64,000 bases of DNA from positions 62,001-126,000 of the forward strand of contig SEEL01000004.1 of NCBI GenBank assembly GCA_004144345.1. The letters are read 5' to 3'. Position numbers and translations under genes: made by a program. Positions within the stretch are counted from its first letter, which is position 1; each line of letters opens with the position of its first letter. This DNA comes from Hyphomicrobiales bacterium. GTDB taxonomy: Bacteria > Pseudomonadota > Alphaproteobacteria > Rhizobiales > Devosiaceae. This document shows positions 18,896-55,366 of the stretch, piece after piece. The notes under the pieces were generated by a model. It was not told the origin of the DNA. It was given only the letters and a program-made list of their open reading frames with translations, and searched no databases.

Positions 18896-18900
<5 letters not shown>
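18875..18900. repeat. Perfect inverted repeat overlapping the tRNA-Lys 3' end
   Basis: CACCAATCCCC (18875-18885) and GGGGATTGGTG (18890-18900) form an 11-bp perfect stem with a TTGA loop. The right arm includes the encoded CCA and discriminator of tRNA-Lys. No T tract follows on the minus strand, so it is not a standard terminator. It may affect 3' processing or RNase access. Confidence 0.6.
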
Positions 18901-18971
<71 letters not shown>

Positions 18972-43713: not shown

Positions 43714-44928
43714 CTATTCGGCCGGTGCAATCTCCATCTGCCGCGGCTCGCGCCGCCGGCCCAGCGTCAGCTGCGTGATCGCAAAGGCCAGCACCGCGCA
43801 CACCGCGAACGCCACGACCATCGGCCGCTGCGTGCCGTCGCCGAAGGCGCCCACAATGCCCATCACCACCGAAGCGACGATCATCTGCACCGTGCCCATC
43901 AGGGCCGAGGCGGAGCCGGCGATCTCGCCCTGCTCTTCCATCGCCAGCACGCCCGTCGAGGGCAGCACGAGGCCGAGGAAGCCGAAGGCGACGAACATGA
44001 AGCCACCCATCACCCACACGCTGTCGGCGCCCATCAGCGTCACCGCGAAGAGCCCGAGCATGGCGAGCACATAGCCGGTGACCGCAACGCGGACCACGCG
44101 GTTGAGCCCGAAGCGCCCGACAAGGAAGCCGGTCGCCTGGCTCGCCGCGAAGAAGCTGATCGCATTGACCGAGAAGGCCAGCGAATACTGCGTCGGCGTC
44201 AGCCCGAAATGGTCGATATAGACGAAGCTCGAATTGCCGAGGAACGCCATGAAGCTCGCCATGCCGAACGTGCCGATCAGCGTCAGGCCGAGGAAGCGCC
44301 AGTCGCGCAGCAACTGGCCGTAGGCCCGGATGGCGCTGCCCAGCCCCGAGTCGAGCCGGGCTTCCTTCGGCCGCGTCTCCTTGAGCGCGACCGCGACCAG
44401 CACCAGCCCGAGCACGCCCACCACCGCCATCACCCAGAACATCGCGCGCCAGTCGGCGATGGCGATCACGAGGCTGCCCGAGAGCGGGGCGAGGATCGGC
44501 GACACCGAGAACACCAGCATGATGAGGCTCATCAGCTGCGCCGCCTGCGCGCCGGTGTAATTGTCGCGCACGATGGCGCGCGGCAGCGACATGCTCGCGC
44601 AGGCGCCGACGCCCTGCAGGAACCGCGCGAAGATCAGCATCTCGGCATTGGGCGCGATCGCGCACAGCACCGAGCCGATGATGAAGATGGCCATGCCGAA
44701 ATAGAGCGGCGGCTTGCGGCCGAACATGTCGGAGAGCGGGCCATAGACCAGCTGGCAGACCGCGACGGCCGCCATATAGGCCATCAGGCTCTGCTGGATG
44801 GTGGCATCGGTTGCACCAAGATCGGCGCCGATCGCCGGCAGCGCCGGCAGATACATGTCGATGGCCACCGGACCGATCACGGACAGCAGGCCAAGGACGA
44901 TGGCCGTACGAACGAGTTGAGCGTTCAT
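43714..44928 (-). CDS. Bcr/CflA-family multidrug efflux MFS transporter
   Basis: A 404-residue, 12-helix MFS exporter. PVAIDMYLPALPAIGADLGA in helix 1 and YGPLSDMFGRKPPL after helix 2 are hallmarks of the Bcr/CflA drug-resistance group. ATG 44928 gives the correct N-terminus (MNAQLVRTAIVLGLLSVIG); the longer frame is not conserved-looking. It exports unknown drugs or metabolites using the proton gradient. The upstream 266-base gap holds only a short inverted repeat (TCCCGTC/GACGGGA, 45072-45094). Confidence 0.93.
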   Translation of the reverse strand: MNAQLVRTAIVLGLLSVIGPVAIDMYLPALPAIGADLGATDATIQQSLMAYMAAVAVCQLVYGPLSDMFGRKPPLYFGMAIFIIGSVLCAIAPNAEMLIFARFLQGVGACASMSLPRAIVRDNYTGAQAAQLMSLIMLVFSVSPILAPLSGSLVIAIADWRAMFWVMAVVGVLGLVLVAVALKETRPKEARLDSGLGSAIRAYGQLLRDWRFLGLTLIGTFGMASFMAFLGNSSFVYIDHFGLTPTQYSLAFSVNAISFFAASQATGFLVGRFGLNRVVRVAVTGYVLAMLGLFAVTLMGADSVWVMGGFMFVAFGFLGLVLPSTGVLAMEEQGEIAGSASALMGTVQMIVASVVMGIVGAFGDGTQRPMVVAFAVCAVLAFAITQLTLGRRREPRQMEIAPAE

Positions 44929-51592: not shown

Positions 51593-52147
51593 CTACATCC
51601 CTTCGGGGCCGCGCGAGATGGCGGCGAGGCCGGTCCGGACCACTTCGACCAACCCGAGCGGCATCATGATGGCGATGAAGCTGTCGATCTTGCTCGGCTT
51701 GCCGGTGATCTCGAACACGAAGCTCTCGGTCGTCGCGTCGACGATCTGCGCCCGATACGCATCGGCAAGGCGCAACGCCTCGGCGCGCGGCTCGCCCGTG
51801 CTCGCAACCTTCACCAGCGCCAGTTCGCGCTCCAGCGCCTTGCCCTCGGCGGTGAGGTCATGCACCCGGTGCACCGGCACCAGCCGCTCGAGCTGCAGCT
51901 TGATCTGCGACAGCACTTTCGGCGTCGCCACCGTCACCACCGTGATGCGGCTCAGCCCCTTGTCGTGTTCGGTCTCCGAGACCGTGAGGCTGTCGATGTT
52001 GTAGCCACGCGCCGCGAACAGGCCGACGATGCGCGCCAGGATACCGGGCTCATTGTCGACCAGCACGCTGAGCGTGTGCCGCTCGGCAGTCTGCGTTTCC
52101 GCGGCGAGGAAATAGGCCGAGCCGCTCGGCTGAAGATGTGCGTTCAT
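51593..52147 (-). CDS. ilvH: Acetolactate synthase small (regulatory) subunit
   Basis: A 184-residue regulatory subunit with an ACT domain: HTLSVLVDNEPGILARIVGLFAARGYNIDSLTV near residue 24, including the valine-binding region. The second domain contains RELALVKV. It binds the IlvI catalytic subunit and gives valine feedback inhibition. It begins 11 bp after the ilvI stop, forming an ilvIH operon under the leader at 53978-54078. Confidence 0.96.
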   Translation of the reverse strand: MNAHLQPSGSAYFLAAETQTAERHTLSVLVDNEPGILARIVGLFAARGYNIDSLTVSETEHDKGLSRITVVTVATPKVLSQIKLQLERLVPVHRVHDLTAEGKALERELALVKVASTGEPRAEALRLADAYRAQIVDATTESFVFEITGKPSKIDSFIAIMMPLGLVEVVRTGLAAISRGPEGM

Positions 52148-52158
52148 TTTGGTGCTCC

Positions 52159-53928
52159 TCAGACCAGCTGCTTGCCCTTGGCGTCGATGACCGAGCCGAT
52201 GTCGTCCTGGAAGTCGGGCAGGATCATCTCATTGTGCGGCTTGCCCGACGGGATCATCGGCAGGCAGTTCTCGTGCTTTTCGACGAGGCAGTCGAAGATG
52301 ACCGGACCGTCATAGTCGAGCATCTCCTTGATCGCCGCGTCGAGCTTCTTGGGATCGTCGCATTTGATGCCCTTGGCGCCGAACGCTTCGGCCAGCTTAA
52401 CGAAATCGGGCAGCGACTCCGAATAGGAATGCGCGTAGCGCCCGCCATGCAGCAGATCCTGCCACTGGCGCACCATGCCCATGCGTTCATTGTTGAGGAT
52501 GAAGATCTTGACCGGCAGGCGGTACTGCACCGCCGTCGAGATTTCCTGCATCGTCATCTGCACCGAGGCTTCGCCGGCGATGTCGATGACCAGTGCATCC
52601 GGATGCGCCACCTGCACGCCGACGGCGGCCGGCAGGCCATAGCCCATCGTGCCGAGGCCGCCCGACGTCATCCAGTGGTTCGGCTGCTCGAAGTGGAAAT
52701 GCTGCGCCGCCCACATCTGGTGCTGGCCGACTTCGGTGGTGATGAACACCTCGCGCCCCTTGGTCGCCTCATAGAGACGCTGGATCGCGTGCTGCGGCTT
52801 GATCGTCGTGTCGGAGTTCTTGAAGCCGAGCGACTTCTTGGCACGCCAGCCATCGATCTGCTTCCACCACGGCGCGATCGCCTCGGTGCGCGGCTGGTTG
52901 GTCTTGCTCCGCCAGATGCGGACCATTTCCTCGAGCACCAGCCCGCAATCGCCCACGATCGGCAGATCGATGCGCACGTTCTTGTTGATCGAGGACGGGT
53001 CGATATCGACATGGATCTTGGTCGAGCCCGGCGAGAAGGCATCGAGGCGGCCGGTGATGCGGTCGTCGAAGCGCGCCCCGATGTTGATCATCAGGTCGCA
53101 ATCATGCATCGCCATGTTGGCTTCGTAGGTGCCGTGCATGCCCAGCATGCCCATCCATTGCGGATCGGAACCGGGGAACGAGCCGAGCCCCATCAGCGTC
53201 GAGGTCACCGGAAAGCCGGTGAGCTCCGCCAGTTCGCGCAGCTTCTCGCTCGCCTCGGGGCCGGAGTTGATGACGCCGCCGCCGGTGTAGAAGATCGGCC
53301 GTTCGGCGCGCAGCATCAAATCCACCGCCTGCTCGATCGCGGCCACATCGCCCGACGTCGCCGGGTGATAGCTCTTGTGGCGCGTCGTCGCGATCTCGTC
53401 GGCACCGTAATAGGTGCCCATCGCGAACTGCACGTCCTTGGGGATGTCGATCAGCACCGGGCCGGGCCGGCCGCTGCGCGCAATGTGGAAGGCCTCATGC
53501 AGCACGCGCGGCAGCTCCGCGACGCTCTTCACGAGGTAATTGTGCTTGGTGCAGCTGCGCGTGATGCCGACCGTGTCGCATTCCTGGAACGCGTCCGAGC
53601 CGATCAGCGCCGTCGGCACCTGCGCCGTGATGACGACCAGCGGGATCGAGTCCATCAGCGCATCGGTGAGCGGGGTAACGACATTGGTCGCGCCCGGGCC
53701 GGAGGTCACGAGCACGCAGCCGACCTTGCCGGTCGAGCGCGCATAGCCCTCGGCCATGTGGCCGGCGCCCTGCTCGTGCCGCACGAGGATGTGCTGCAGC
53801 TTGTCCTGCTGGAACATCGCATCATAAATCGGCAGGGCCGCGCCGCCCGGGTACCCGAAGATATGCTCGACGCCCTGATCCACCAGCGCCTGGATCACCA
53901 TCTCGGCGCCCGTCATCTGCTCGGCCAT
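52159..53928 (-). CDS. ilvI: Acetolactate synthase large (catalytic) subunit
   Basis: A 589-residue thiamine diphosphate enzyme. VDQGVEHIFGYPGGAALPIYD near the N-terminus, VRHEQGAGHMAEGYAR with the catalytic Glu near 50, and DIAGEASVQMTMQEISTAVQYRLPVKIFILNNE near 450 with the ThDP-binding motif are all present. The ThDP motif reads GEAS where GDGS/GDGC is common. It makes acetolactate or acetohydroxybutyrate in valine, leucine and isoleucine synthesis. The leader has a candidate attenuator. Confidence 0.97.
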   Translation of the reverse strand: MAEQMTGAEMVIQALVDQGVEHIFGYPGGAALPIYDAMFQQDKLQHILVRHEQGAGHMAEGYARSTGKVGCVLVTSGPGATNVVTPLTDALMDSIPLVVITAQVPTALIGSDAFQECDTVGITRSCTKHNYLVKSVAELPRVLHEAFHIARSGRPGPVLIDIPKDVQFAMGTYYGADEIATTRHKSYHPATSGDVAAIEQAVDLMLRAERPIFYTGGGVINSGPEASEKLRELAELTGFPVTSTLMGLGSFPGSDPQWMGMLGMHGTYEANMAMHDCDLMINIGARFDDRITGRLDAFSPGSTKIHVDIDPSSINKNVRIDLPIVGDCGLVLEEMVRIWRSKTNQPRTEAIAPWWKQIDGWRAKKSLGFKNSDTTIKPQHAIQRLYEATKGREVFITTEVGQHQMWAAQHFHFEQPNHWMTSGGLGTMGYGLPAAVGVQVAHPDALVIDIAGEASVQMTMQEISTAVQYRLPVKIFILNNERMGMVRQWQDLLHGGRYAHSYSESLPDFVKLAEAFGAKGIKCDDPKKLDAAIKEMLDYDGPVIFDCLVEKHENCLPMIPSGKPHNEMILPDFQDDIGSVIDAKGKQLV

Positions 53929-53977
53929 CTCTTAGTCCTTCCTCACTCGTCCGCCCGCTCGCGGAAATTCAGGCAAT

Positions 53978-53999
53978 AAAAAAGGCCCCATCAGGGACC
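53978..53999 (-). terminator. Leader terminator of ilvIH attenuator
   Basis: On the minus strand GGTCCC-TGAT-GGGGCC forms a 6-bp stem (one G-T pair) followed directly by TTTTTT. It lies about 50 bases before the ilvI ATG and 31 bases after the leader-peptide stop, so it would stop transcription before ilvI. Confidence 0.8.
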
Positions 54000-54030
54000 T
54001 GTTTGCGCGCACCAGTCTTCTCGCGGGGAG

Positions 54031-54078
54031 TTATCCCACGTGACCGATGCGCCCCACTACTACAAGAATGTTCCGCAC
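54031..54078 (-). CDS. ilvIH leader peptide (MRNILVVVGRIGHVG)
   Basis: A GTG-initiated 15-codon frame with GGAG 8 bases upstream. It encodes MRNILVVVGRIGHVG: Ile, Leu and three consecutive Val, i.e. all three branched-chain amino acids, with two GTA Val codons that are rare in this DNA. It lies upstream of a T6 terminator in the ilvI leader. This is the arrangement of a ribosome-mediated attenuator sensing branched-chain aminoacyl-tRNAs. Family knowledge supports such control of ilv genes; this particular leader is my inference. Confidence 0.75.
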   Translation of the reverse strand: MRNILVVVGRIGHVG

Positions 54079-54193
54079 AAACGTGCTCCGTTTCAAAGTC
54101 GGCGGGACGATAGGCTCGCCATCACGAGCCTGTCAAGCGGCTTCTCCCCTCGCGCCGAACTGCCCTATCCTTCGGTGAATCGGAAGGAAATCC

Positions 54194-55366
54194 ATGGCTG
54201 CCGCCTGCACCGCGCTCATTCTCGGCTTCCTCTGCACCCCCGAAGCGCAGACGGACAGCTTCCTCGACGTCACGGCCGAAGCCCTGCCCGCCAAGGACCC
54301 CCGCCTTCATTCGATGGCAGCGAGCGCCGCCGATATCGACAATGATGGCGACCTCGATCTCGTCATCGCCGTCGAGTTCGGCACCAACCGCCTGCTGCTC
54401 AATGACGGCACCGGCCGCTTCACCGACGCCTCCGCCAGCCTGCCGCCGCACCCGCCCGGCGATCATGAGGACGTCGCCATCGCCGACTTTGACGGAAACG
54501 GCCAGCTCGACCTCGCCTTCTATGGCGAGGACGACCAGATCGCCGCGCTCTTCCTCAACCAGGGCGGCCTGACCTTCATCGAAGCCACCGCCCGCCTGCC
54601 CTCGCGCGGCATCGCCAATGCCGTGGTCGCCGCCGATATCGATGGCGACGGCGATGCCGATCTCATCGTCGGCAATGCCGGTCCCGATTTCGTCTTGATC
54701 AATGACGGCGCGGCCAACTTCACCGACGAAAGCGATCGCCTGCCCGTGGGCAACGGCATAACGCAGGACATTGCCACCGGCGACGTCAATGGCGACGGCA
54801 CCATCGATCTGCTGTTCGGCAATGAGGATGGCAATGCGCTCTACTTCAACGACGGCATCGGCGGCTTCCATCGCGAGCGCCTGCCCTCCCGCCCGACGCC
54901 CGAGGAAACCCGCGACGCCGATTTCGTCGATATCGACGGTGACGGCGACCTCGACATCTATTTCGCCAATGTCGAGATCTTCGTCCCCGACCGCGACCGC
55001 CAGGACCGCCTGCTGCTCAATGACGGCCACGGCATCTTTGCCGACGTCACCGCCACGCATCTGCCCGCCGAAACCGAAACCACCATGGCCGCCGCCTTCA
55101 TCGATCTCGACGGCGACGGCGATCTCGACATCGTCAGGGGCGGCTTCGATCTGAGCCGCACCCGCGACCCGGTCACGCCGCTCATTGCCTGGCTCAATGA
55201 CGGTGCCGGATATTTTGCGGCCGCGACAGGCGCCATCCCGGCCACCGCCCTTGCCAACACCTTCGACCTCGAAGTCGCCGACTACAATGGCGACGGCGTC
55301 GACGATCTGTTCGTCGCCAGCCGCGGCGGTGCCGACCGCCTGCTGCTGGGCCTTGCTAGACGCTGA
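54194..55366 (+). CDS. FG-GAP/VCBS seven-repeat propeller protein
   Basis: A 390-residue protein with seven Ca2+-loop motifs of the DxDxDGD type, near residues 47, 98, 148, 197, 246, 304 and 363. That number fits one complete integrin-alpha-like seven-bladed propeller. The N-terminus MAAACTALILGFLCTPEAQT is hydrophobic but lacks a basic start, so export is likely but not certain. AAGGA precedes ATG 54194. It may bind sugars or proteins at the surface. It overlaps the convergent LuxR gene by 11 bases. Confidence 0.85.
   Translation: MAAACTALILGFLCTPEAQTDSFLDVTAEALPAKDPRLHSMAASAADIDNDGDLDLVIAVEFGTNRLLLNDGTGRFTDASASLPPHPPGDHEDVAIADFDGNGQLDLAFYGEDDQIAALFLNQGGLTFIEATARLPSRGIANAVVAADIDGDGDADLIVGNAGPDFVLINDGAANFTDESDRLPVGNGITQDIATGDVNGDGTIDLLFGNEDGNALYFNDGIGGFHRERLPSRPTPEETRDADFVDIDGDGDLDIYFANVEIFVPDRDRQDRLLLNDGHGIFADVTATHLPAETETTMAAAFIDLDGDGDLDIVRGGFDLSRTRDPVTPLIAWLNDGAGYFAAATGAIPATALANTFDLEVADYNGDGVDDLFVASRGGADRLLLGLARR

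Follow-up and report, generated by a model that had tools for sequence, protein, structure and literature searches.

A probable ribosome-mediated attenuator of ilvIH in the Atu_C8 RNA family, with related leaders upstream of Bcr/CflA-type transporter genes

INTRODUCTION

Attenuation of ilvIH has already been proposed for alphaproteobacteria. A survey of small RNAs (sRNAs) in S. meliloti includes an "ilvIH cis regulatory" entry, for which it refers to Vitreschak et al. 2004 (PMC2573895), and a passage on Caulobacter describes the ilvIH operon as attenuated via a leader frame (PMC4117421). In Agrobacterium, three sRNAs from the literature have been reclassified as 5' UTR leaders, according to an excerpt of a survey (PMC3738593). 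In S. meliloti, the trp leader peptide peTrpL is stated to take part in the control of a multidrug resistance operon (PMC7298713).

Here we analyzed a stretch of 64,000 nt from a Hyphomicrobiales bacterium of the Devosiaceae (contig SEEL01000004.1; "the window" is this whole stretch), in which a leader of this kind precedes ilvIH. With respect to the published proposals, the window leader is an ordinary further case. What is described here beyond the published ilvIH leaders is a covarying stem, the distance or overlap between it and the terminator, and copies of the leader linked to MFS transporter genes.

RESULTS

Organization of the leader upstream of ilvIH

All parts of the leader lie on the minus strand. 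A consensus scan identified a sigma-70-like promoter, TTGACA-18-TATCGT, at 54107..54136 (one site, against 0.0 ± 0.1 in shuffles), which was absent from the first-pass annotation of this DNA; many relatives share the TTGAC box, 53-60 nt 5' of the element. A Shine-Dalgarno-like GGAG (54086..54089) follows, 7 nt 5' of a GTG start codon, and the predicted leader peptide frame, MRNILVVVGRIGHVG, covers 15 codons from this GTG to a TAA stop (54031..54078), as read from the sequence and from relatives. Inside the frame, at 54069-54055, are the regulatory codons ATT CTT GTA GTA GTG (Ile-Leu-Val-Val-Val). The first-pass annotation had described a GTG frame with GGAG and an Ile-Leu-Val-Val-Val run with two GTA codons, and we found these at 54089-54031.

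Between leader and terminator, folding predicted an 11-bp stem that the first-pass annotation did not contain. Its 5' arm, GCGCATCGGTC, lies after the regulatory codons within the leader frame (54042..54052) and its 3' arm, GACTGGTGCGC, at 54007..54017, both assigned by fold and covariation. An inner hairpin (54022..54040), its loop at the leader stop codon, was also predicted, and compensatory changes in it were seen by eye, uncounted, in the family alignment. A site scan placed the intrinsic terminator, including T6, at 53978..54000, and it is kept in alignment A1. Its hairpin (54000-53983) comprises seven pairs around the loop TGAT, and T6 reaches 53978, 50 nt 5' of the ilvI ATG at 53928; the 6-bp stem and T6 described earlier at this distance from ilvI are therefore present, with one additional A-T pair. 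Three terminator-like sites were detected in 701 bases, compared with 0.3 ± 0.6 in shuffled sequence, and the remaining two overlap one another within ilvI.

Downstream, ilvI (acetolactate synthase large subunit, 52159..53928) and ilvH (small subunit, 51593..52147) both passed their NCBIfam cut-offs. The locus thus has the arrangement of an attenuator, with a short predicted frame that carries cognate regulatory codons, an intrinsic terminator between this frame and ilvI, and, downstream of the leader, ilvI and ilvH as an operon for the cognate amino acids.

The hexamer ATTGCC, just after the T run (53977-53972), is widely conserved in relatives in alignment A1, although the terminated RNA is expected to end before it. 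The genome contains TTTTTTATTGCC a single time, so this sequence is not a common terminator tail there. The divergent neighbor on the plus strand (54194-55366) encodes repeated D-x-D-x-D-G-like motifs, presumably FG-GAP/VCBS-like, and matched no NCBIfam model at cut-off. A tRNA gene was located by Rfam at 18899-18971 on the minus strand of the window.

Codon usage and conservation of the leader frame

We next considered how readily such a codon run arises by chance. When the 208-nt upstream stretch was shuffled 2000 times with dinucleotides preserved, 0.3% of the shuffles contained a short frame with a run of at least five Ile/Leu/Val codons, and 2.7% one with a run of at least four. The codons of the run are mostly rare ones for ilvIH. 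GTA accounts for none of the 60 Val codons in ilvI and ilvH, ATT for 4% of the 52 Ile codons, and CTT for 3% of the 64 Leu codons; the fifth codon, GTG, is common (55% of Val). Rare regulatory codons are expected to increase the sensitivity of an attenuator, according to the relevant passage of PMC1183508.

Leaders could be parsed at 269 of the 270 places. A run of at least three Ile/Leu/Val codons was present in 244 of the 246 parsed ilvI-linked leaders, compared with 8/246 and 2/246 in the other two frames, a control that is partly circular because the frame was picked by its own run. Four T's (18, 21, 24, and 27 of the window row) are invariant or nearly so across 60 diverse leaders (51 ilvI-linked and 9 MFS-linked), and each is the second position of an Ile/Leu/Val codon of that row.

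Distribution of RF02502 and its position before ilvI

By cmscan, the window leader matched Rfam family RF02502 (Atu_C8, "Rhizobiales sRNA") over all of its positions (1-122 of 122), at 53968..54085 on the minus strand, with 53.7 bits against a curated cut-off of 50. This is the only RF02502 match in the window's genome. In a search of the order, 100 of 199 genomes contained a match, at 103 places in total, with 28 genomes having one above the Rfam cut-off. At 101 of the 103 places, the match was on the same strand as a homologue of ilvI (60-100% identity) and 20-161 nt upstream of it, and the other two (L007 and L032) directly precede a different gene. These results indicate that RF02502 is chiefly an ilvIH leader.

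Of the 136 genomes in the window's family, 121 matched, at 141 places; 120 of these places were before ilvI and 20 before an MFS gene. The last, a second place in one genome (G216, 30.1 bits), resembles an ordinary terminator 3' of another gene and was set aside. In a second family (f23), which appears to be Rhizobiaceae, 240 of 247 genomes matched; 38 of the 41 places read, mostly the best-scoring ones, were before ilvI and three before an MFS gene. Some f23 genomes have a second, more divergent ilvI with an Atu_C8 leader of its own (L031/G023, L155/G473, and L264/G389), and the L031 leader clusters, at 88/80 support, with MFS-linked leaders from its own genus.

Fifteen genomes of the window's family had no Rfam match, and 11 of these were searched for IlvI, which was not found at the threshold used in four. 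Six of the 11 belong to one genus (g4). The upstream region is contained in five of these six genomes, while the sixth starts within ilvI, and in all five ilvI is preceded by a leader (for example, MRNVLVLVISGTGGANIS) and a terminator. These leaders were missed by the Rfam model and were detected at 36-45 bits by R1, a model built in this analysis. In a further Rfam-negative genome (G205), the match was truncated at its 5' end. R1 matched 117 of the 199 order genomes. The 82 genomes in which R1 found no match weigh against the attenuator reading; they include G093, a g4 genome that carries the leader, so some of these blanks are search losses rather than real absences. In a class sample, R1 matched 3 of 289 genomes: the window, one member of the order, and the MFS-linked G674. 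The first-pass annotation had made its reading depend on the leader being present in related genomes, and it was found before ilvI at the 101 order places, at the 120 family places, and in the five g4 genomes.

A stand-alone, trans-acting sRNA whose nearness to ilvI is incidental would agree with the Rfam type of the family ("Gene; sRNA") and with the use of RF02502 as an sRNA benchmark family in a passage of PMC5913331. The Sinorhizobium attenuator RNA rnTrpL is also described, in an excerpt of PMC10117765, as a dual-function sRNA, so a second role for an Atu_C8-type RNA is possible. We nevertheless consider a stand-alone sRNA very unlikely, given the same-strand position shortly before ilvI at 101 of 103 order places, the direct precedence of a gene at the other two, and a conserved coding frame with cognate codons, which is unexpected for a pure sRNA.

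Covariation of the stem and its relation to the terminator

We then examined the proposed ribosome-mediated attenuator at the level of RNA structure. Seven of nine stem pairs were altered on both sides in some sequences, and 98% of cells were paired; the terminator helix was less even in the same alignment (85.6% of cells paired). Stem and terminator together gave a covariation score of 0.383 versus 0.183 in shuffled alignments, with none of 500 shuffles, which do not preserve relatedness, scoring as high. Slid versions scored 0.052-0.118, and the top three pairs in a mutual-information scan were stem pairs.

A spacer of 6 nt (7 nt without the A-T pair) separates the stem from the terminator in the window, and the two share no bases. 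The first-pass annotation had suggested that GGGG in the leader codons could compete with CCCC at the terminator side, a proposal that was not borne out. In the covariation scan, no upstream column convincingly covaried with the terminator 5' arm, and equilibrium folding gave a terminator probability of at least 0.97 at each of the 16 ribosome positions tried. One pair of columns joining stem and terminator, 91-104, was within the top 20 of the scan, and we take it as relatedness because column 104 scores equally with the stem partner column 39 and the neighboring pairs are unlisted. The GGGG/CCCC pairing failed across alignments, as did three other pairings picked by eye, namely the stop-region GGGAT with GGTCCC, GACT with GGTC, and, in the second family, AGCC with GGCT. 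GTAGTAG with TTATTGC, past the T run, was seen by eye in the window's family and was dropped on its absence from f23 sequences. The stretch from the stop codon to the terminator 5' arm gave no common fold among 94 sequences of the window's family or among 85 from a mixed group of the order; it gave three pairs in f23 (30 sequences) and three plus two pairs in the MFS group (23 sequences). Thus, alignments and the covariation scan yielded no conserved antiterminator competing with the terminator in window-type leaders.

The extent to which upstream RNA is predicted to hold the terminator 5' arm, before its 3' arm is synthesized, was also calculated. In the 246 ilvI leaders, the mean was 0.39 with the RNA free, 0.33 with the ribosome stalled on the run, and 0.54 with the ribosome at the stop codon; in the 23 MFS leaders, the values were 0.45, 0.40 with the ribosome stalled on the run, and 0.36, respectively. 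The ilvI values contradict a simple switch, in that stalling does not increase the holding. Codon sensing by the leader is well supported by these sequence comparisons, and the step from stalling to readthrough is one that we infer for the window type, where stem and terminator are 6 nt apart and share no bases.

If the terminator were constitutive and partial, with a leader frame that plays no regulatory role, its predicted formation at every ribosome position and the failure to find an antiterminator would be as expected, but the conservation of Ile/Leu/Val codons in relatives, including rare synonymous ones, would not, and we regard this explanation as highly improbable. A riboswitch directly binding branched-chain amino acids or ppGpp would suit a compact covarying stem 5' of a terminator, but is scarcely credible where conservation falls mostly on codon positions, on the terminator, and on the two arms of the stem, where neither the sequence nor the length of the inner hairpin is constant, and where no Rfam riboswitch family reaches cut-off.

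Leaders upstream of Bcr/CflA-type MFS transporter genes

The MFS-linked places comprise the 20 of 141 in the window's family and the three of 41 examined in f23, plus some records of other groups. The gene downstream of L007 matched TIGR00710 (Bcr/CflA efflux) at 217 bits, above the cut-off of 200.9, and that downstream of L032 matched the same model at 163 bits, below this cut-off; CmlA models were among the lower-scoring matches of both. From identity with named records, L007 is from Pelagibacterium xiamenense and others are from Devosia.

The MFS-linked leaders resemble MMIENGMVVVGARMGTAA. In the window's family, the run consisted of valine only in 16 of 20 (just VV in two of these 16), and in the other four it was LVVV, IVV, LVVVI, and IIV. 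Leu and Ile made up 2.3% and 6.9% of the residues in 23 MFS-linked leaders, compared with 10.2% and 11.7% in the 246 ilvI leaders, while the share of Val was equal (19%) in both. The f23 MFS leaders retain both Ile and Leu (MVLIVVI and MVLVVVI).

A tree was built from 108 elements, and in it one starred group (99/98) united all of the MFS-linked rows (22) with all of the f23 rows (21) and excluded the ilvI leaders included from the window's family (25). This tree has few columns and long branches, and its bootstrap had not settled, so only the one starred grouping is used. Since the MFS copies group with the f23 ilvI leaders and not with those of the window's family, the leader and the transporter gene have probably moved together. 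A local duplication of the ilvI leader within the window's family found no support in the tree.

Among 52 loci encoding relatives of the transporter, some from the same species as the places above, R1 detected the element in 17 (E ≤0.0017), including Roseibium, Nisaea, and Rhodospirillaceae records and G674, and in six more only at E 0.18-0.63. Six of the other 29 have distant leaders by eye; in seven (L305, L307, L314, and L319-L322), no leader or T run was seen by eye within ~200 nt; three are disrupted or truncated (L288, L289, and L297); and in the rest, given at most a quick look, no such leader was seen. The link to the leader is therefore frequent among close relatives of the transporter and not universal. 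No close copy of the linked transporter was found in the window's genome, where the best relative is 33% identical; the window itself contains, at 43807-44895 and ~9 kb from the leader, an MFS gene with this identity to the attenuator-linked transporter.

Distant leaders upstream of the transporter gene

By eye, we selected 12 leaders of greater divergence from the transporter loci. Most of them resemble MKFVVVVAGDRRMDR, with only a short run in L315 and no run in L317. In 11 of the 12, a helix of five to nine pairs between the leader codons and the region after the stop codon overlaps the terminator 5' arm by 1-6 nt, as counted without a shuffle control, and this helix ranks second among the helices in three of the 11. 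In the twelfth (L316), an inner hairpin was selected by the script as the terminator. By comparison, the best stem was 6-9 nt from the terminator in all seven window-type MFS leaders examined, one of which (L294) has an additional, second helix overlapping the terminator.

Such an overlap is a requirement for an antiterminator. In the distant leaders, the 5' arm of the stem would be covered once the ribosome has reached the stop codon, and a valine-stalled ribosome would leave much of this arm free. When 10 of them were folded with the full terminator, the terminator reached 0.87-1.00 with the ribosome stalled and 0.95-1.00 with the ribosome at the stop codon; the terminator wins at equilibrium, so the overlap gives no equilibrium switch in these 10. 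We read the stem as having originated as an antiterminator.

DISCUSSION

On the frame, its rare codons, the covarying stem, the terminator, the position before ilvI, and their conservation, the window leader is very probably a ribosome-mediated transcription attenuator of ilvIH. Transcription would begin near 54100, as judged from the promoter-like site, and a ribosome would translate the 15-residue leader. With ample charged Ile, Leu, and Val tRNAs, the ribosome would reach the stop codon and occlude the 5' arm of the stem that follows, with RNA polymerase halting at the terminator to leave an Atu_C8-type RNA of ~120 nt. When Ile, Leu, or Val is scarce, the ribosome would stall at ATT CTT GTA GTA GTG, and the polymerase would continue into ilvIH. 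Translation, stalling, readthrough, and their dependence on amino acid supply are the parts of this scheme that we infer.

A covarying stem is now available for the ilvIH leader of the order. Its relation to the terminator marks a mechanistic gap, in that distant copies have an equivalently placed stem that overlaps the terminator, and the stem of the window type does not.

The transporter-linked copies, with the same leader ahead of an efflux-type transporter, are the surprising part. We lean toward the interpretation that the ilvIH attenuator was recruited before a Bcr/CflA-type MFS transporter gene and moved as a cassette between families and beyond the order, its run being narrowed to valine in most Devosia-type copies. 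If so, the transporter would be switched on by a shortage of valyl-tRNA or by anything else that stalls ribosomes on the leader, for example an amino-acid antimetabolite or a ribosome-targeting antibiotic exported by the pump, and the Atu_C8 "sRNA" of Rfam would be an attenuator family with two regulons. A testable claim follows for both the transporter and attenuator reuse: valine supply or ribosome stalling should control the pump.

In our search of open-licence papers, we found no report connecting Atu_C8 with ilvI and none connecting a leader of the branched-chain amino acid type with a Bcr/CflA transporter, each of which is weak evidence of novelty. Compared with the alphaproteobacterial ilvIH attenuators (Vitreschak et al. 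2004; Caulobacter, PMC4117421), the window leader is alike, as far as the passages on them go, in leader frame, attenuation, and the ilvIH operon downstream; it differs in being from another host family, and the known leaders enter this comparison as descriptions rather than structures. RF02502 is typed as an sRNA gene, whereas the places read here are nearly all ilvI leaders with a coding frame, along with some MFS leaders, so that the sRNA-gene label covers what is in practice a leader placed in cis. The MFS-linked leaders share with cmlA, as outlined in an excerpt of PMC8876359, a leader peptide before an MFS-efflux gene, in that case for chloramphenicol resistance; cmlA differs in its chloramphenicol-induced translational attenuation, as described there, whereas the leaders here have an intrinsic terminator and Val codons. 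In rnTrpL/peTrpL of Sinorhizobium meliloti, the terminated RNA of an attenuator is likewise a small RNA (PMC10117765, in the part on this RNA). That system is a Trp attenuator acting posttranscriptionally on another operon, whereas here the leader stands directly before the efflux-type gene.
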